From NCBI GenBank assembly GCA_017546665.1, contig JAFYSE010000017.1, positions 1 to 52,470 of the forward strand: a stretch of 52,470 bases of DNA, written 5' to 3'. Made by a program: the position numbers and the translations under genes. This DNA comes from Clostridia bacterium. Lineage in GTDB: Bacteria; Bacillota; Clostridia; Oscillospirales; Acutalibacteraceae. The notes beneath the pieces are model-generated. The model did no database searches. It was not told the origin of the DNA and saw only the letters and a program-made list of their open reading frames with translations. Shown here in pieces: positions 3,482 to 14,184 of this stretch. How positions within the stretch are numbered: the stretch's first letter is position 1; each line of letters opens with the position of its first letter.

Positions 3482-4558
3482 ATGGATAATAATTTTAATA
3501 CAAATGGTCAACAAAATAGTTGGCAGGTTCCACCAAGTTATAATTCCAATGGATATTATAATTACGGTGCGTATGTAAATAGCGAATATTATCAAAAGTT
3601 AGAACAAAAGAAGAAGGAAAAAAAGGATATAAAAACAATAGGAAAAAATTGCGGTATCGGTGCTTTGCTTTATCTTGCGATTGCTTATGGTGTAGCTTTT
3701 GTAGCAACTATATTGGCAACTATTTTTCCTTCGTTTAACGTGGTTTTCTCGGATAAAACTGCAATCTTTGCTTTTGATTCTGTTTCATCAATATTGGCAT
3801 TAGGTATTCCTTTTGCTTTAGTCTTTGTTATTTTAAAAAATAAAAAGTTAATGAAAGCATTACCTTATGAGAAACCAGAAAATCCAAAGGCAGCAGGATA
3901 TCTTACTCTTTTATCCATTCCGGTTATGGTTTTTTCGTCAATAATAATCAATTATATATCCGCAATTATTCAAGCGATTCTTGGAGTGGAATTTAATAGT
4001 AATATTGAAAACACAAAAATTTCAGGTGTAATAGGAGTTTTGGCAGTATGTATAAGTATTGCTATTGTTCCTGCAATATTGGAAGAGTTTGTTGTAAGGG
4101 GTGTTGCGTTGCAGTCCTTACGGAAATATGGAGACAAATTTGCGATTTTAGTTTCGGCACTTTTCTTCTCAATTCTCCATGGCAATATGCTTCAAATACC
4201 ATATACCTTTGTTGGTGGATTAATCCTTGGTTATCTCGCTGTAAAAACCAAGAGTTTGTGGCCACCAATGATTCTACATTTTGTAAACAATTTCTATTCT
4301 GCTATTGTTTTAATTGTGACGGACAATTTTAGCGAAAAAGCAGGAACTTATGTTACTTATGTGATATGGATATTATTCATATTGTTTGGTGTTTTTGGTG
4401 CTATCGGATATATGGGTAATAGGGAAAAAGCTCCATTGTCCGAAGGAGAAAGCGTACTTACAACTAAAGAAAAGATAGTCGCTTTTATTAAAAATGGTCC
4501 AATGATAACAATGATTATTCTATTTGGAATAATGGCAATAAACAGTATTGCTTTTTAA
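3482..4558 (+). CDS. CPBP-family intramembrane metalloprotease
   Basis: Polytopic membrane protein of the CAAX-protease/bacteriocin-processing (CPBP, Abi) family. The N-terminal 50 residues are Asn/Tyr/Gln-rich and cytoplasmic, followed by about eight hydrophobic segments. The three catalytic motifs are all present: EExxxR at residues 201-206 (EEFVVR), FxxxH ending at His233 (FSILH) and HxxxN at His266-Asn270 (HFVNN). It should therefore be active. It starts 12 bases after the LCP gene with GGTGTG upstream of ATG 3482, and its stop lies 2 bases before tadA, so it belongs to the same operon. Its substrate is unknown; members of this family take part in prenyl-protein processing, bacteriocin immunity and envelope signalling. 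Confidence 0.9.
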   Translation: MDNNFNTNGQQNSWQVPPSYNSNGYYNYGAYVNSEYYQKLEQKKKEKKDIKTIGKNCGIGALLYLAIAYGVAFVATILATIFPSFNVVFSDKTAIFAFDSVSSILALGIPFALVFVILKNKKLMKALPYEKPENPKAAGYLTLLSIPVMVFSSIIINYISAIIQAILGVEFNSNIENTKISGVIGVLAVCISIAIVPAILEEFVVRGVALQSLRKYGDKFAILVSALFFSILHGNMLQIPYTFVGGLILGYLAVKTKSLWPPMILHFVNNFYSAIVLIVTDNFSEKAGTYVTYVIWILFILFGVFGAIGYMGNREKAPLSEGESVLTTKEKIVAFIKNGPMITMIILFGIMAINSIAF

Positions 4559-4560
4559 TT

Positions 4561-5028
4561 ATGGATAAGTTAGATTATATGAAATATGCTCTTTCTCTTG
4601 CCAAGAAATCAGCAGAGGAAGGCGAAGTGCCTGTGGGTGCAATCGTTGTTTGCGACGGTAAAATTGTGGGCGAGGGCAGAAATCGTAGAGAAATTGTGAA
4701 AAATGCTCTGCACCATGCAGAAATTGAAGCAATCAATGAATCTTGTAAAAATCTTGGTGGCTGGCGACTTTGGAAATGTGATTTGTATGTCACATTGGAG
4801 CCTTGCCCCATGTGTGCAGGTGCAATTATAAATTCAAGAATTAAAAATGTGTATTTTGGTGCAAGTGACCAAAAAAACGGTGCTGTCGTTTCGGCGGCAC
4901 GTCTTTTTGATATGAACTTTACTCATAAGCCTTTATATGAGGGTGGAATTATGGGCGAAGAATGTGCCGATATTCTTTCAACATTCTTTAAAGATTTAAG
5001 AAAACAGAAAGCGGGTGAAGAAAAATGA
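4561..5028 (+). CDS. tadA: tRNA-specific adenosine deaminase TadA
   Basis: Zinc deaminase that converts the wobble adenosine (A34) of tRNA-Arg(ACG) to inosine. The cytidine-deaminase signature is complete: HAE at residues 52-54 (zinc His and proton-shuttle Glu) and PCxxC at 81-85 (PCPMC). The length of 155 aa is normal. The ATG lies 2 bases after the previous stop and has no clear Shine-Dalgarno sequence (upstream bases are TGCTTTTTAATT), so translation is probably coupled to the CPBP gene. Its TGA overlaps the ATG of mnmE as ATGA, which places two tRNA wobble-modification genes next to each other. Confidence 0.95.
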   Translation: MDKLDYMKYALSLAKKSAEEGEVPVGAIVVCDGKIVGEGRNRREIVKNALHHAEIEAINESCKNLGGWRLWKCDLYVTLEPCPMCAGAIINSRIKNVYFGASDQKNGAVVSAARLFDMNFTHKPLYEGGIMGEECADILSTFFKDLRKQKAGEEK

Positions 5029-6386
5029 GTACTGTAGCGGCTATTTCAACAGGACGTGCCCCAGGTGGTATCGGTGTTATAAGAATTTCCGGCGAAAATG
5101 CCATAGGTGTTGCAGATAAAGTTTTTTCTTCATTCAATGGAAAGAAATTAAGTGAAATTTCTGGCTATTCTGCACTTTATGGCAAGGCTTTTGATAGTAA
5201 TGGTAACATTGATAATGTTGTTGCCTTGCTTTTTAGGGCACCCAAAAGCTATACGGGTGAGGATGTTGTTGAAATATCTTGCCACGGTGGACTTTTTGTC
5301 ACTGACAAAGTGCTTAAAGCAGTTTATGATGCAGGAGCAATACCTGCCGAAGCAGGAGAATTCACTAAAAGAGCCTTTTTAAACGGAAAAATGGACCTAA
5401 CAAGTGCAGAATCTGTTATGAATATTATTTCTGCACAGGGTGAACAGGCAGAGAAAATTGCCCTTGGTGTTTTAGAGGGCAGACTTTTTAAAGAAATCAA
5501 AAAAATTAATGATAAATTAGTATATGATATGGCTTTGCTTTCGGCTTGGGTTGATTATCCTTATGAAGAAATTGAAGATTTGTCGGATAATAATCTTAAA
5601 GAGCATATTGAGGAAAGCATAAATAGTCTGGAAAAGTTAATAAACGACTTCTCAAAAGGACAAATTATAATGGAGGGTGTTGATACTGCCATTGTGGGTT
5701 GTCCCAATGTTGGCAAATCAACACTTATGAATTTGCTTTCAGGTACAGAAAAATCTATTGTTACTGAAATTGCAGGAACAACAAGGGATATTGTTGAAGA
5801 TACTGTAAATGTGGGCGGAATAACACTTCGTCTTGCTGATACTGCAGGCGTTCGTGAAACTGAAGATGTTGTTGAGAGCATTGGTGTTGACCGAGCAGTA
5901 AAAAGACTTGAAACAGCAGAGTTGGTTCTTGCAGTTTTTGATGCAAGTCGTGAGCTTAATGAGCAGGATAAGAAACTTATTGAGCTTTGCAAGGGCAAAA
6001 AAACAATAGGAATTGTCAATAAAACTGATTTAGACAAAAACTATCTAAACGGTGAGATTGAGAAAAATTTCTCGCAGACAGTTTTTATCTCAGCCAAAAC
6101 AGGAAACGGAAAAGAGGAGCTTACAAGAGCGATTGAACAGACTCTTGGTACTGCAGATTTTGATACATCTGCTACTGCTATTGTCAACGACCGTCAATGT
6201 GATTGCTGTAAAAAAGCTCTTGATGCATTGAAGGATGCAGAAAATGCACTTTTGTTTGGAATGACAATGGATGCAGTTACAGTTTGTCTTGATTCAGCCA
6301 TTGAAAATCTTATGATTTTAACAGGGGAAAAGGCAACAGAGCTTGTTGTTAATGAAATTTTTGCACAATTCTGTGTGGGCAAATAA
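5025..6386 (+). CDS. mnmE: tRNA modification GTPase MnmE (TrmE)
   Basis: GTPase that works with MnmG to add carboxymethylaminomethyl groups to U34 of tRNAs. The N-terminal tetrahydrofolate-binding domain starts TVAAISTGRAPGGIGVIRISG. The G domain has the P-loop GCPNVGKS (about 224-231), the switch segment AGTTRD, DTAG and NKTD. The protein ends in FCVGK, matching the conserved C-terminal C-x-GK motif whose Cys is needed for modification. At 453 aa it is full length. The ATG overlaps the tadA stop by 4 bases. An Mrp-type ATPase follows after 43 bases. No MnmG is present in this window. Confidence 0.97.
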   Translation: MSTVAAISTGRAPGGIGVIRISGENAIGVADKVFSSFNGKKLSEISGYSALYGKAFDSNGNIDNVVALLFRAPKSYTGEDVVEISCHGGLFVTDKVLKAVYDAGAIPAEAGEFTKRAFLNGKMDLTSAESVMNIISAQGEQAEKIALGVLEGRLFKEIKKINDKLVYDMALLSAWVDYPYEEIEDLSDNNLKEHIEESINSLEKLINDFSKGQIIMEGVDTAIVGCPNVGKSTLMNLLSGTEKSIVTEIAGTTRDIVEDTVNVGGITLRLADTAGVRETEDVVESIGVDRAVKRLETAELVLAVFDASRELNEQDKKLIELCKGKKTIGIVNKTDLDKNYLNGEIEKNFSQTVFISAKTGNGKEELTRAIEQTLGTADFDTSATAIVNDRQCDCCKKALDALKDAENALLFGMTMDAVTVCLDSAIENLMILTGEKATELVVNEIFAQFCVGK

Positions 6387-8710: not shown

Positions 8711-9127
8711 TTATTCTTCGTCTTCGCAGCAGTCACAATCACATTCGAATTCGAGAACTTCGCCACAGTTTGGACAATCTGCTTCACCGTCGAGAATGAT
8801 TTCTTCGTCGAAGTAAATTACTTCACCACAGTTTGGGCATTCAACTTCGTACATATCTTCGTCACAATCGCAGCAATCGTCACAATCACAGTCACAATCG
8901 TCACATTCGTCATAGAAGATATCTTCGAGTTCTGCAAGGTCTTCGTCAACTTCGTCAAGCTGCTGTGTAACAAGACCCATTTCATCATCAAGGTCGCTTA
9001 CTGTAAGTGCGATGTCTTCAAGAACATCGAGAACAGCGTTAATAACTTTTGTTTCTTTATCGTCCTTGTCAAAATCAAGACCTTCAACAAGACCCTTGAG
9101 ATAAGCTACTTTTTCAGTAATTGTCAT
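8711..9127 (-). CDS. CD1247-like acidic protein with Cys-rich C-terminus
   Basis: A 138-aa protein. Residues 1-70 (KVAYLKGLVEGL ... EDLAELED) match the helical N-terminal domain described in Clostridia as CD1247-like. The C-terminal half is extreme: an Asp/Cys run CDDCDCDCDDCCDCDED at about 75-91, then two CPNCG knuckles (about 97-101 and 118-122), suggesting a zinc ribbon, then another Cys/Asp tail. ATG 9127 has GGAGGA 8 bases upstream; a TTG at 9142 falls in front of that site and is rejected. It is the second gene after efp, 15 bases away. Function is unknown; metal binding is inferred from the Cys pattern. Confidence 0.85.
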   Translation of the reverse strand: MTITEKVAYLKGLVEGLDFDKDDKETKVINAVLDVLEDIALTVSDLDDEMGLVTQQLDEVDEDLAELEDIFYDECDDCDCDCDDCCDCDEDMYEVECPNCGEVIYFDEEIILDGEADCPNCGEVLEFECDCDCCEDEE

Positions 9128-9142
9128 TTTAGTTTCCTCCAA

Positions 9143-9782: not shown

Positions 9783-10913
9783 TCAAGGGATAATTATATA
9801 GCTTTCTGCCTTACTTGAAGACAAGTTGTTATAAAATTGGTCGTTTAAAACCGTATTTTTAACTGTTGGAATGATTTTTACGGTGGAAAAGTTATTCTTT
9901 GCCTTATCATTCATAACAATATAATTATTCTCTATATATGTGATATAATCGCCATTTTCGGGTGGAAGAATGATGGGGGAACACATTTGTGCAGCAGTGT
10001 CAAAAAGAGTACCGCCCCATTTTTCTGCATCTCCATTGTTGACTGCTTCCAAGGGTAATCCTAAAATCACAGGGCGACCATTTGCAGAAGAAACAGCTTT
10101 TTCTAAAAATTCCATAAGAACAAGGTTACGATTAAGAGTTTTATCGTCTTTTGTAAAAACAGGCACTGAGCCTTCCCTTGAAGCAGGGAATTGTACGGAT
10201 TCTAAATAAATACAGTCTGCACCTGCTTTCACCACCTCACCCACAACCTTTGTGAGATAGGAAACAGCGTTTGAGTTAGTTGGGTCAAGCCACACTTTTC
10301 CGTTGTTAATTGCAGAATCGTCAAACCATATTTTTGTGTTTTCTGCATCTTCATGCACATAAGCATTAAGTCTTTGAGGTGCAATACTGTCCTCAAAGCA
10401 GAAAATTCTTGCAACTACTAAAAAACCTCGGTCCTTGATTCTTTTTATAATTGACTGACTTATGGTGTTGTATTCTGTTTTTTCTGAATAGGTAATCAAA
10501 TCTGATTCGTAGGTTAAAATGCCTTCCTGAGTTTTGAAATCAAGAACAACTGCATTAAACCCGTTTTTTGAAGCAGATTCCAAAGCCTGGTCAATTTCTG
10601 TTGAGTTATCCAAAAATGAATTATCAATATAAACAGCTCTTAATTTATCAAGGGAATCCATTGTAACTGCTGAGGAGTCACCATGTGTTTCAGGTAGAGG
10701 GCGACGAGAAAGGTTGTAGCAAAATTTAATTGTGACGAAGGATGCTACAAAAAGGCAACACAAAAACACGCAGAACAAAATAATTTTGATGCGTTCTCTC
10801 TTTTTTGCTCGTCGGCTTTCATGAATTGGTCTTTCACCACGACGAGACGGATATTTTTTTGAAAACTCGTAATATCCCTTTAATCTTCGGGAACTGTTTG
10901 TGTTTTTTGCCAT
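9783..10913 (-). CDS. DUF4015 putative glycoside-hydrolase-like membrane protein
   Basis: A 376-aa protein with a basic cytoplasmic N-terminus, one membrane helix at about residues 44-64 and an external domain. The external domain resembles the DUF4015 (putative glycosyl hydrolase, TIM-barrel-like) family: RAVYIDN, FNAVVLDFKTQEG, LVVARIFCFED, VWLDPTN and GADCIYLESVQFP follow each other in the expected order. The enzymatic activity of the family is unproven. Here the usual acidic residues DFK and YLE can be seen, but I cannot assign a catalytic pair. It is the last gene of the Rnf-like operon, 14 bases after the RnfA-like gene, and has only a weak ribosome site (GGCGA). Its location suggests a wall-facing partner of that membrane complex. 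Confidence 0.78.
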   Translation of the reverse strand: MAKNTNSSRRLKGYYEFSKKYPSRRGERPIHESRRAKKRERIKIILFCVFLCCLFVASFVTIKFCYNLSRRPLPETHGDSSAVTMDSLDKLRAVYIDNSFLDNSTEIDQALESASKNGFNAVVLDFKTQEGILTYESDLITYSEKTEYNTISQSIIKRIKDRGFLVVARIFCFEDSIAPQRLNAYVHEDAENTKIWFDDSAINNGKVWLDPTNSNAVSYLTKVVGEVVKAGADCIYLESVQFPASREGSVPVFTKDDKTLNRNLVLMEFLEKAVSSANGRPVILGLPLEAVNNGDAEKWGGTLFDTAAQMCSPIILPPENGDYITYIENNYIVMNDKAKNNFSTVKIIPTVKNTVLNDQFYNNLSSSKAESYIIIP

Positions 10914-10927
10914 ATAGATTCGCCAAC

Positions 10928-11521
10928 TTAAATAAAGATTGATGTACCTGAAATTCCGGTAAATGCTAAGGATAGAAGTGCAGTATAAATGAAAATTGCA
11001 GGAGTACCTTTAAAACATTTTGGAATTGATTTGTTAGTGTCAAGTCGTTTAAGACCCAAATTAATAAGCAAAACAGCAATTACATAGGCAAGACCTGCAC
11101 CTAACCCTGCACCTATTGCTTCGATTGGTGTGAAAGCAGAACGATAGTTGATTAAAGGCATTGCAAGAACAAGTGTATTAAATGCTGCAATACCAATTCT
11201 GCGAATAGTTTTCGGTGAAACTTGTCCATAGATAATCACAATTAACATTGTTAGAAGATACAATCCGAGAAGCACACTAACATAAATAAGAGCGTGGAAA
11301 ACTTCGTTCAGGTTTTTCACATAAGGTATTGTGTCAATAAATACACAAATTGTTGATAAAACTGTTGAAAAAACAGTTATGAAGATTGCCATGGGGAACA
11401 ACTGACGAGGCTTTGCACTCATTCGTATTGCTTCGCTTAAACTGTAACCACCATTAAAAATGAGGTTTTGGAAAACCATAACATAAAGTGCAGCGGAGAG
11501 AATTGTAAGGAAGTATGTCAC
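10928..11521 (-). CDS. RnfA-like membrane subunit lacking Fe-S cysteines
   Basis: A 197-aa, six-helix protein of the RnfA/RsxA/NqrE type. Homology is clearest at the C-terminus, where IPKCFKGTPAIFIYTALLS and LAFTGISG match the RnfA ending. In canonical RnfA two membrane Cys, in GxCPFLG and VNCAVLG, help hold a [2Fe-2S] cluster with RnfE. Here the first site reads NLIFNGGYSL (about 19-28) and the second FNTLVLA (Asn115-Thr116), so both cysteines are gone. The start is GTG 11521, overlapping the RnfE-like stop as GTGA, with GGAGGTG 7 bases upstream. This is probably not a standard electron-transfer subunit. Confidence 0.8.
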   Translation of the reverse strand: MTYFLTILSAALYVMVFQNLIFNGGYSLSEAIRMSAKPRQLFPMAIFITVFSTVLSTICVFIDTIPYVKNLNEVFHALIYVSVLLGLYLLTMLIVIIYGQVSPKTIRRIGIAAFNTLVLAMPLINYRSAFTPIEAIGAGLGAGLAYVIAVLLINLGLKRLDTNKSIPKCFKGTPAIFIYTALLSLAFTGISGTSIFI

Positions 11522-12435
11522 TGCTTATCACCTCCGTCGTTTTCGGAAGAATTTTGATTTTCAAGGTCGGAAAGAATCTCTGAAAAGTCATCGAGATAGG
11601 TTCTTTCTTTTTCTTCCACAAATAATGGGGTCTCATTACTCTCATTTTCATTGTTTGTTTCTTCAGGGAGTTTTATTTTTGATTTTCTAACTTTTTTCTT
11701 ATATTCACGAACAGAGAAAACATCGTCTTCCCCTTCACCATAAGGGTTAAATTCTTCCTTCATAAGGTCCTGAATAGAACCACGATGTGAACGTCTGATT
11801 TCAGATAAATCGAAAGCCTTTTCAGGAGATGCATCGGGGTATTTCGCATTAACAAAGGCTTTAAGGGCTGCTGCTAAAAAGCCTATAATCAAAAGACCAC
11901 CAAAGGGAGTAGTAATAACCGGAATATTAACAGGGAGATTAAGCTTAATGTCCCAAATGCTACCATTTGCAAGAATTTCTCTTATAAATCCTAAAATGAT
12001 TGTTACAACACCATAACTTAAAGAAGCAGAAACGGCGTCAATAAAACTTTTCTTTACGTCACTTTTAACTGCAACTCGTTCACAATGGAGAGCGATAAGT
12101 GAATTGACTGCCATTAAAGGCAGGAAAATGCCAAAATTAACTGCGATATTCGGGAAGAAACGCAAGGTGAGATACATTATAGGGAAAACCACCATAACGC
12201 TGAAAATAACATAAAGAGCAACACGCCAATAACGTTTTACGTTTTTTAAGAGTAGTGATGATAAAACCTCGCAGATTATCATCTGCACAAATGTAACACA
12301 TGCTAAAAACAACGCAAGTTTCAAGGAACGAGCCAAGGCAACAACAGAACACAATCCTATTGCTTCAAAAAGAAGTGGGTTTTTAATAATTGCACTGTTA
12401 CGGATAGTTTTTAGAACTTTTGATTGATTACTCAT
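11518..12435 (-). CDS. RnfE-like membrane subunit with acidic C-terminal tail
   Basis: A 305-aa protein. Residues 1-205 are an RnfE/RsxE-type membrane core: NPLLFEAIGLC (Cys29, matching the first cluster ligand), FGIFLPLMAVNS (canonical VNC, here Ser112) and GFIREILANGSIW (canonical GAIREILG). So one of its two expected cluster cysteines is lost. Residues about 206-305 are an added charged, cytoplasmic-looking tail rich in Glu, Asn and Lys, absent from ordinary RnfE. ATG 12435 is chosen (GGGGGTG 6 bases upstream) over GTG 12444. It overlaps the RnfD-like stop by 8 bases and the RnfA-like start by 4, showing translational coupling. Confidence 0.8.
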   Translation of the reverse strand: MSNQSKVLKTIRNSAIIKNPLLFEAIGLCSVVALARSLKLALFLACVTFVQMIICEVLSSLLLKNVKRYWRVALYVIFSVMVVFPIMYLTLRFFPNIAVNFGIFLPLMAVNSLIALHCERVAVKSDVKKSFIDAVSASLSYGVVTIILGFIREILANGSIWDIKLNLPVNIPVITTPFGGLLIIGFLAAALKAFVNAKYPDASPEKAFDLSEIRRSHRGSIQDLMKEEFNPYGEGEDDVFSVREYKKKVRKSKIKLPEETNNENESNETPLFVEEKERTYLDDFSEILSDLENQNSSENDGGDKQ

Positions 12436-13609
12436 CACCGTCACCCCCTATAATAAAAGGAGCTTCTTGTTCCATAAGAGTATTTTCTTCAGAAACAACA
12501 GTATCAAGACTTTCGCTGTCACCAAGTATAATTTCATTAAGATTGTTTTCATCTGTTTCTGTTGTGTCTATTGATATATCAGGGATTTCATTGAGAATTT
12601 CTTCGGGAACAACAGTAGAAATTTCAATTTCAGTATATGGTTCACTTGCCTTAATACGCAACTTTTCTTTTCGGGTATAAGGCAATTTATCAAAATAATC
12701 GGAAATGCCACAAGAAATCAAAATACCGAAGCCAATACTTTCTTCAAATGCTCCGACATAACGGATTAACATACAGATAATTCCACTTGTAAAGCCCCAA
12801 GCAAGTTTTCCCAATAGTTTTTCTGGCATATAGTTTGGAGAAGACATAAAGAAAATTGCACAGAAAAGTAACATTCCTGAACAAAGCTCCATTACAACGG
12901 AAAGCGCTCTGCCCGATGAAATTCTTGGGAATGCAAATGCCATAATGCAAGCGGCAAGGATAAACGAGAATACAGGAATAGTATCCTTTGTTCTGCGAAT
13001 TAAAAGAAATGCAAGAGAGCCGATTAAGGCGATAATACAACCTGTACCCATGGCAGAGGGGACGTTTCCAATAAAAATCTCCAAAATTGCAACGTGATTA
13101 CCATCTATTGCATTACCGTAGGTAAGCATTTTTGCAAGTGACATACCATGGTCGGAATAGTTAAAAACAAATTCAGGCCAACAAAGAGTTGCAAAAGAAA
13201 TTGCTGCAACTGCAGGGATAAAAGGTGTTTTTTCAAAACTACCGAAAGGTAAAACACAAACTGCAACAGCAAAAATACTGGATAAAACTACAATCCACCA
13301 AGGAATATTTACGGGTAAAAGTAACGCTACCATAACACCAATAATAATGTTGGATATATCTTTGATTGAAGTTTCACTTTTGATTAACTTTTTGCCTAAA
13401 AATGAAGTAAGGGCACAAGTCAATACGGAGATAGCAACTGGTTTTACAGCCGAAACTCCGTGGATGAAAAAAGCAACAAAAAGTGGTGCAATCAGCATAA
13501 GGGCATAATCAACCGTAGCGGAATGCTTTTTGTTTTCTATTGAATTTTGAGGGATATTTGTGTTTGTCAAAACATATTCCTCGCTTTTACCAATAATTTT
13601 TAATTGCAT
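12428..13609 (-). CDS. RnfD-like membrane subunit lacking FMN-Thr motif
   Basis: A 393-aa protein of the RnfD/NqrB family. Landmarks in order: an NPFNPA-like segment (TPFIPAV, about 128-134), FIGNVPSAMG (about 179-188; canonical LGNVPGSLGE) and VFSFILA further on. In canonical RnfD an (S/T)GATPL motif carries the covalently bound FMN on its Thr. The equivalent stretch here, between FIPAV and GNVPS, reads DHGMSLAKML and has no such Thr. Residues after about 315 form a long acidic tail ending GGDGDE. ATG 13609 with AGGA upstream is preferred to the upstream start at 13645. It is the first gene of a four-gene operon without RnfB, RnfC or RnfG. Confidence 0.8.
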   Translation of the reverse strand: MQLKIIGKSEEYVLTNTNIPQNSIENKKHSATVDYALMLIAPLFVAFFIHGVSAVKPVAISVLTCALTSFLGKKLIKSETSIKDISNIIIGVMVALLLPVNIPWWIVVLSSIFAVAVCVLPFGSFEKTPFIPAVAAISFATLCWPEFVFNYSDHGMSLAKMLTYGNAIDGNHVAILEIFIGNVPSAMGTGCIIALIGSLAFLLIRRTKDTIPVFSFILAACIMAFAFPRISSGRALSVVMELCSGMLLFCAIFFMSSPNYMPEKLLGKLAWGFTSGIICMLIRYVGAFEESIGFGILISCGISDYFDKLPYTRKEKLRIKASEPYTEIEISTVVPEEILNEIPDISIDTTETDENNLNEIILGDSESLDTVVSEENTLMEQEAPFIIGGDGDE

Positions 13610-13632: not shown

Positions 13633-13662
13633 GAAATAGAAACATATTTTCAGGAGGCAGAT

Positions 13663-14184
13663 ATGATTGTTGAAAATCTTAATAATAATGTAATGCTTGT
13701 AGAATTATCTGTTGATGAGATGAAAAAGTACGACATTACATATGAAAATCTGAATAATCAGGACCGAAAAAATCAGGTGGCTATAAAAAATCTGTTAAAA
13801 CAGATTGACCAACAAAACCTTCACGGAAACAGTGGGAAAGTAATCGTTGAGGCTATGCCCATTGACGGGGGAGGATGCTTTTTCATTTTCACATTTCCAC
13901 AACCACAAAAGAGATATAAACTGAAAAAGACGGACTCCGTATGTTTTTATCATTTGGAAAAGCTTGACGATTTGCTTGATTTTTTGAATGTTACGAAGAA
14001 AACACCAAACTCGGATATTTTCATTAACGCATATAAGATGAATAAGAATTATTATGTTTCTGTTTCAAACGAAAACAGTAAAATAAAAACTATCTTAAAT
14101 GAATTTGGAAATGAAACAGACAAAACCACAGGATTCAGAATTTTAGAGTATGGAAAAAATATCGGGAAGTTTTATTTACAATAA
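13663..14184 (+). CDS. MecA-like adaptor protein (ClpC adaptor family)
   Basis: A 173-aa protein whose N-terminal 70 residues look like the substrate-binding part of MecA: VELSVDEMKKYDITYENLNN, followed by LLKQIDQQ and the Gly-rich MPIDGGGCFFIFTF (compare the GGC segment of clostridial MecA). The C-terminal half (about 90-173) has the expected alternating beta/alpha pattern of the ClpC-binding domain but is short. MecA proteins deliver clients to ClpCP. AGGAGG precedes ATG 13663. It is divergent to the Rnf-like operon and convergent with rpe, overlapping rpe's 3' end by 13 bases. The family call is moderate. Confidence 0.7.
   Translation: MIVENLNNNVMLVELSVDEMKKYDITYENLNNQDRKNQVAIKNLLKQIDQQNLHGNSGKVIVEAMPIDGGGCFFIFTFPQPQKRYKLKKTDSVCFYHLEKLDDLLDFLNVTKKTPNSDIFINAYKMNKNYYVSVSNENSKIKTILNEFGNETDKTTGFRILEYGKNIGKFYLQ

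Follow-up and report, generated by a model that had tools for sequence, protein, structure and literature searches.

The Rnf and Nqr complexes are known as redox-driven pumps. For Rnf, the pair of RnfA and RnfE has been described to carry Na+ by alternating access, with the cluster as its gate and a Na+ ion-pair network comprising R67 and E115 of RnfE and E88 of RnfA, and no ion path was found in RnfD (Kumar et al. 2025, PMC11889175). Na+-NQR has been traced to an rnf operon that was duplicated and lost rnfB (PMC4014512), and reduced systems with an NqrB/RnfD homologue that lacks the flavinylation site are reported among Nqr/Rnf-like flavinylation gene clusters (PMC8238504 and PMC11334425). 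Here, we analyzed a four-gene operon on a stretch of 52,470 nucleotides from a Clostridia bacterium (assembly GCA_017546665.1, contig JAFYSE010000017.1, positions 1 to 52,470, hereafter the window), which encodes RnfD-, RnfE- and RnfA-like proteins together with a DUF4015 protein. Judged from its sequence and those of its relatives, the system is a conserved, selected, Rnf-derived membrane module without the Rnf electron path, and it is found in a clade of gut Clostridia that keeps the membrane core of a redox pump.

The four genes are close together or overlap on the minus strand between 13645 and 9783. A preceding annotation made without database searches (the sequence-only reading) had placed overlapping RnfD-, RnfE- and RnfA-like genes in one operon, and gene calls and Pfam matches agree with it. 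The features are as follows, with phmmer values referring to searches against solved Rnf chains:

12428..13609, minus strand: RnfD/NqrB-like membrane protein of 393 amino acids, counted from ATG 13609 (PF03116, E = 2.7e-47; phmmer to 7zc6_D, 2.2e-25)
11518..12444, minus strand: RnfE/NqrD-like membrane protein, starting at GTG 12444 or ATG 12435 (PF02508, 3e-27; phmmer 1.1e-15, aligned with 7zc6_E and 9eri_E)
10928..11521, minus strand: RnfA/NqrE-like membrane protein with a GTG start (PF02508, 9.3e-14; phmmer to 8ahx_A, 3.4e-08)
9783..10913, minus strand: fourth gene, DUF4015 protein with one hydropathy peak (PF13200, 1.1e-23; predicted transmembrane (TM) helix at residues 44-62)

The open reading frame of the D-like protein opens at 13645, and ATG 13609 was chosen as start on account of an AAGGA eight bases ahead of it. 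The frames of the D- and E-like genes overlap, as do those of the E- and A-like genes (by 4 bases), and a strong ribosome-binding site (GGAGGTGA) lies upstream of GTG 11521. The Pfam matches of all four proteins exceed the cut-off of the respective family, and the D-, E- and A-like proteins all score far under the NCBIfam cut-offs for RnfD, RnfE and RnfA. From these similarities there is little doubt that the trio consists of true Rnf/Nqr homologues. The D-like protein ends in an acidic tail, and the E-like protein (308 amino acids) in a long one. The C-terminal tails of E-like proteins from window-like clusters are generally long, variable and charged, with a protein length of 697 amino acids at locus L040.

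The window assembly (1.69 Mb in 65 contigs, completeness 75%) contains one other PF02508 pair, located on contig C41 within a full canonical rnf operon that encodes RnfC, RnfD (SGATPL), RnfG, RnfE (GTCPT, VNC), RnfA (GICPF, TNC) and RnfB, with ApbE nearby. The trio is thus a paralogue, and the possibility that it represents the missing half of the canonical operon was rejected, since the latter has its own D, E and A subunits. No gene for RnfB, RnfC or RnfG was found in the window operon, as had been claimed beforehand, and the only copies in this genome are the canonical ones elsewhere. The canonical RnfG (contig C41, L035 5867-7048; likewise in genome G057) carries two FMN_bind matches in one protein of 393-396 amino acids instead of one.

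The canonical Rnf of the same genome served as the yardstick for the cofactor positions. In the A-like protein, S29 and T116 occupy the positions where the two cluster cysteines are expected. The sequence-only reading had recognized the loss of both, although the segment aligned to GxCPFLG is YSLSEAIR and not NLIFNGG as it had proposed. The E-like protein retains the first cluster cysteine (C32, previously numbered Cys29) and has serine (S115) in place of the second, so that one of the four [2Fe-2S] cysteines is left. In the D-like protein, -HGMSL is aligned to SGATPL. The reported loss of the flavinylation motif therefore holds for the [ST]GA context; the acceptor position itself is still occupied by serine (S169). 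On the basis of this alignment the alternative that the cofactor residues are shifted rather than missing was rejected.

Related loci were surveyed to determine how widely these losses are shared. The window D-like protein was matched in 125 of 150 genomes of the same family (E ≤ 0.001), a count that includes canonical RnfD. Wide stretches taken around the 40 best D matches nearly all contained either a window-like cluster (DEA) or a cluster with an RnfC-like gene in front (CDEA); the exceptions were L071, with D alone, and L061 and L063, where the sequence ends at the expected position of RnfC. Neither RnfB nor RnfG was found in the stretches fetched around DEA or CDEA clusters. A hidden Markov model of A-like proteins was run against genomes of the order (295) and of the class (391). 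Among the matches listed, scores of at least 183 bits occurred only in the family of the window, scores of 125-146 bits in a second family (f26) and one genome of a third (f5), and the others reached at most 112 bits. The f26 and f5 stretches contained the same cluster, which is hence found in three families of the order. A scan of named-species genomes with the A-like alignment yielded 80 retained loci with titles such as Clostridia, Ruminococcus and Oscillospiraceae (two titled only Bacillota), many of them from gut metagenome assemblies.

After removal of nine loci that had been fetched twice, the family of the window contributed 94 DEA rows. All three genes were visible in 88 of them, and in all 88 they lay on a single strand. 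Where enough sequence was available, the fourth gene was present at 75 of 86 DEA loci of the family, at all nine f26 loci and at 5 of 16 CDEA loci. A divergent MecA-like gene lay within 400 bp of the D gene at 65 of the 88 DEA loci and at three of nine f26 loci, and ahead of the C gene at 11 of 18 CDEA loci. These gene-order counts led us to reject a chance neighborhood. At two loci (L036 5418-6191, L037 5109-5891), a gene for a CAP-domain protein (PF00188) with a lipoprotein-like start is inserted between the D- and E-like genes.

All four cluster cysteines were present in seven of seven canonical rows. In the window clade (repeated loci removed, denominators 90-92), cysteine was found at neither A position (0/92 each), at the first E position in 69 of 91 rows and at the second in none of 92. 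Among the CDEA rows (19, of which 18 include A), the corresponding numbers were 0/18 and 4/18 for A, and 6/19 and 0/19 for E; in f26, cysteine occupied the second A position in three of nine rows. The [ST][GT]A[ST] context in D was found in 5 of 7 canonical, 0 of 19 CDEA and 0 of 113 DEA rows. The RnfC-like proteins of all 19 CDEA clusters contain two CxxCxxCxxxC ([4Fe-4S]) motifs. Both the GxGGAGFP loop and PQG(G/A)E are missing from all of them; the seven canonical rows have these elements, which we take to bind FMN and NADH.

The dependence of the cluster on canonical Rnf was addressed at the genome level. PF02508 searches in 30 genomes gave four matches, corresponding to the canonical and the paralogue pair, in 24 genomes, and five, including fragments, in G072; G057 had the canonical pair only. 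Four genomes had the paralogue pair without a canonical one, namely G103 (99% complete, 2 contigs), G051, G077 and G090. When ten genomes were tested, neither FMN_bind nor an RnfB-type match was found in G103, G077 and G090, and G051 had one small FMN_bind protein and no RnfB. The clusters of G103, G051 and G090 are of the CDEA type, that of G077 (L167) is without RnfC and of the DEA type. By these searches, the three near-complete genomes G103, G077 and G090 do not appear to have Rnf, and the redox-less cluster would be their only Rnf-type system. Annotation of such genes as Rnf subunits would credit these organisms with an energy-conserving complex that is apparently absent there.

These genomes bear directly on the idea that the paralogue is a regulator, an inhibitor or an alternative membrane module of canonical Rnf, sharing its C, G and B subunits. 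The co-occurrence of a canonical A/E pair in 18 of 18 tested DEA genomes of the family and in nine of nine f26 genomes would fit such a role, but the four genomes without a canonical pair, including the DEA genome G077, speak against it, as do the alteration of the side of RnfA that faces RnfB (K32) and the deep separation of the canonical and paralogue clades; we regard this explanation as quite improbable. Relocation of the CDEA-like RnfC gene elsewhere in DEA genomes was also rejected: such a gene was absent in 18 of 18 DEA genomes, where the RnfC searches matched only canonical RnfC (116-196 bits in the best piece), its smaller pieces and ferredoxin-type proteins below 37 bits.

D, E and A were concatenated (54 rows, 738 columns) for a maximum-likelihood tree, in which canonical Rnf (five rows) stood apart from all other rows with support of 100/100; bootstrapping had not quite settled. 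The DEA rows grouped in two separate clades, one of the window family (22 rows; 100/100) and one of f26 (seven rows; 95/74), and L167 was placed inside the CDEA rows. With canonical Rnf as the root, the DEA type thus falls in three places, which implies no fewer than three losses of the RnfC gene. The window and L076 gave dN/dS values of 0.128 (D), 0.088 (E), 0.058 (A) and 0.084 (fourth gene), obtained by simple counting, with dS exceeding 1 for more distant pairs. All four genes are under purifying selection. A pseudogene was rejected on the basis of the open frames and these values well below 1. A decaying rnf duplicate without function, as the joint loss of many cofactor residues might suggest, has a negligible probability, given the same two observations, the co-stranded D, E and A genes and newly fixed residues such as E30 and Y179 of A and C121 of E; it is refuted by this conservation.

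We assign a probability of about 0.85 to the loss of Rnf-type electron transfer. The earlier proposal that an Rnf core was reused outside this process is supported by the clade-wide losses, the purifying selection and the three genomes in which neither RnfB nor FMN_bind was found. The residues that were kept or newly acquired give some indication of what the remaining core may do. By direct alignment to the Acetobacterium woodii chain, R67 and E115 of RnfE correspond to R74 and E122 of the window protein. Within the window clade, all 91 rows have Arg at R74; at E122, 90 of 92 rows have Glu and the other two Asp. Of the 72 columns that are invariant in the seven canonical rows, only five are kept at ≥97% in the clade, and these two are among them. 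The probability that chance would place two named columns among five of 72 is ~0.004, a post hoc value as the conserved columns had been noticed before the paper. New in the A-like proteins of the clade are E30 (91/91) and R33 (Arg in 87 and Lys in 4 of 91), both in the segment where the first cluster cysteine used to be, as well as C59 (88/92) and Y179 (90/90; Tyr in 16 of the 17 CDEA rows that have a residue at this position, Ala in seven of seven canonical rows). New in the E-like proteins is C121, which adjoins E122 (88/92). In D, R241 and E253 occur in 88 of 90 clade rows and in all CDEA rows but in only one and two of seven canonical rows, respectively. The new residues common to both types point to a common job of DEA and CDEA clusters. 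That the A/E-like pair still acts as a cation carrier or gate without redox switching is a tentative reading of these residues, to which we give slightly less than even odds.

Several observations weigh against the reading of the system as an ion-handling core freed from redox chemistry. The RnfA side of the site is mostly lost, with E88, T110, T111 and L108 each kept in 0 of 101 rows and K32 in 11 of 101. Just 3 of 19 CDEA and 6 of 9 f26 rows retain E115; owing to this scarcity, the R67/E115 pair does not characterize the redox-less clade as a whole. Retention of D is unexplained if RnfD serves electron transfer only. At L175 (genome G008; 3605-5215 and 5650-6213), a D-like gene and a short TM fourth gene are accompanied by a divergent MecA-like gene only, and no PF02508 gene was found in this genome (95% complete), so that D and the TM protein can persist without E and A. 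Finally, 104 of 113 DEA and 19 of 19 CDEA rows still have Ser or Thr where flavin would be attached to D.

The last point leads to redox chemistry of another sort, in which D would bind flavin non-covalently or on the remaining serine, or the thiols of C32 and C121 of E would react; in the intermediates, electrons would come from the [4Fe-4S] clusters of the RnfC-like protein. The paired CxxCxxCxxxC motifs of the CDEA proteins are in line with such a route, whereas the DEA type has neither an electron donor nor an acceptor subunit. In the region of the riboflavin contacts N123 and D249 (PMC11889175; approximate numbering), CDEA D proteins mostly keep Asn (13/19 and 15/19) and Asp (15/19), but in the window clade the Asn residues are gone (3/90 at one position, absent from the listed residues at the other), and the Asp, replaced by Ser in the window, is retained in 52 of 90 rows. 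The acceptor Ser/Thr of the DEA rows lies in some cases in an SGTS-like context, and an S169-equivalent Ser is present in 82 of 90 rows of the window clade, so flavinylation by an uncommon route is conceivable; the [ST]GA motif itself occurs in 0 of 132 rows. C32 and C121 are found together in 72 of 101 E rows, but C32 is missing in 22 of 91. ApbE was present in 30 of 30 genomes, which canonical Rnf or other substrates would account for. Nqr/Rnf-like complexes with a D homologue that has no flavinylation site have been reported (PMC11334425). Weighing both sides, we consider an alternative redox function unlikely.

The fourth protein of the window consists of a short N-terminal segment, the predicted TM helix and an extracytoplasmic, glycosidase-like DUF4015 domain. 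Among 101 fourth-gene rows, including the window, 61 were long (>300 amino acids), 39 short (≤200 amino acids) and one ended at a contig edge. The short forms correspond to the single-TM part without the DUF4015 domain; three of them (L047, L051 and L036) gave no Pfam match above cut-off, and two (L047 and L051) no NCBIfam match. A loose N-terminal motif, F[ST]xx(x)[YF], was found in 69 of 101 rows and [IL][ST]xxP downstream of it in 62. In the long forms, one strand aspartate of DUF4015 was present in 4 of 4 CDEA, 19 of 48 window-family DEA and 0 of 9 f26 proteins. From these patterns the enzyme-like domain looks dispensable. The sequence-only reading had assigned the core a role together with the DUF4015 protein. 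The weight placed on DUF4015 needs revising because 39 of the 101 rows have the short TM protein only.

These data also bear on a solute transporter or envelope scaffold, in which D-E-A would move or hold a cell-wall item with DUF4015 or CAP-domain proteins outside. The frequent fourth gene in family and f26 DEA loci and the CAP-domain genes between D and E would be in keeping with it, as would the fusion of DUF4015 to YkyA in proteins that PMC12700454 discusses alongside polysaccharide deacetylases. The absence of DUF4015 from more than a third of the rows (39/101), the poor retention of its strand aspartate in the family and in f26, and the low frequency of the fourth gene at CDEA loci argue in the opposite direction, and this explanation appears improbable to about the same degree as the alternative redox function.

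We take the module for a paralogue of the Rnf membrane core that was inherited vertically and stripped of its electron path stepwise. RnfB and RnfG, the membrane [2Fe-2S] site and the D flavinylation motif have been lost; of RnfC, the FMN/NADH loop went first and the whole gene later in several lineages. In the mechanism that we propose, the A/E pair would present R74/E122 on the inner side and the new E30/R33 on the helix that formerly bore a cluster ligand. The D-like protein would assist it structurally or in gating, and the complex would be tied to the cell surface by the single-TM fourth protein. TonB- and Mot-type systems offer an analogy for the transfer of force or state to a surface protein. 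By this analogy, the module might be an ion-driven, redox-free machine, in which an A/E rocker moves a cation downhill and force or state passes via D to the surface TM protein; we regard this version as speculative and rather unlikely. If it were true, the RnfC-bearing intermediates would show a redox pump turned stepwise into another machine.

Many gut Clostridia thus contain a conserved, redox-less second copy of the core, usually beside a normal Rnf, that retains part of the ion-handling site and probably does a different membrane job. The CDEA intermediates order the losses, and the clade offers a naturally occurring test of which core parts are able to move or gate ions when the cluster is absent, with a bearing on the debate over RnfA/E or RnfD as the Na+ carrier. 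No earlier description of a redox-less Rnf core was found in the literature searched, in which subscription journals and preprints were thinly covered.

Two neighboring genes of the window were also noted:

13663..14184, plus strand: MecA-like gene, divergent from the operon (PF05389, 2.1e-07, 31.3 bits versus a cut-off of 22.5; weak family call)
8711-9142, minus strand: CD1247_Nterm protein with a Cys/Asp run (CDDCDCDCDDCCDCD) ahead of a zinc-ribbon-like CPNC pair

A six-frame search of the window genome with PF05389 (E 0.001) gave no match, the MecA-like gene of the window included, and the family name is weak for this reason. The protein, a putative ClpC-type adaptor, is very divergent, with 74% identity to that of L076 and 36-43% to the next relatives.

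Compared with described systems, the module is distinct in each case. The Nqr/Rnf-like flavinylation clusters have an NAD-binding domain on D and an FMN-binding partner and, in the text available, are described without E and A; the window operon is the reverse, as its D-like protein has PF03116 only and not the C-terminal NAD-binding domain PF00175 used as criterion in PMC8238504, and no FMN_bind gene is present. Na+-NQR shares a related core (NqrB, NqrD and NqrE). As a redox pump it contains NqrC and NqrF, however, both of which are absent from the window operon, where the cluster cysteines have been lost. From the Rnf complex (RnfABCDGE; 9eri from A. woodii, 7zc6, 8ahx), the redox-less clusters differ in having no RnfB, no RnfG, no full [2Fe-2S] ligand set and no D flavinylation motif, and the window type additionally in being without RnfC and in its added single-TM/DUF4015 protein. 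They share with it homologous D, E and A subunits in the same order, D..E-A, and, in the clade of the window, the R67/E115 ion pair of RnfE.

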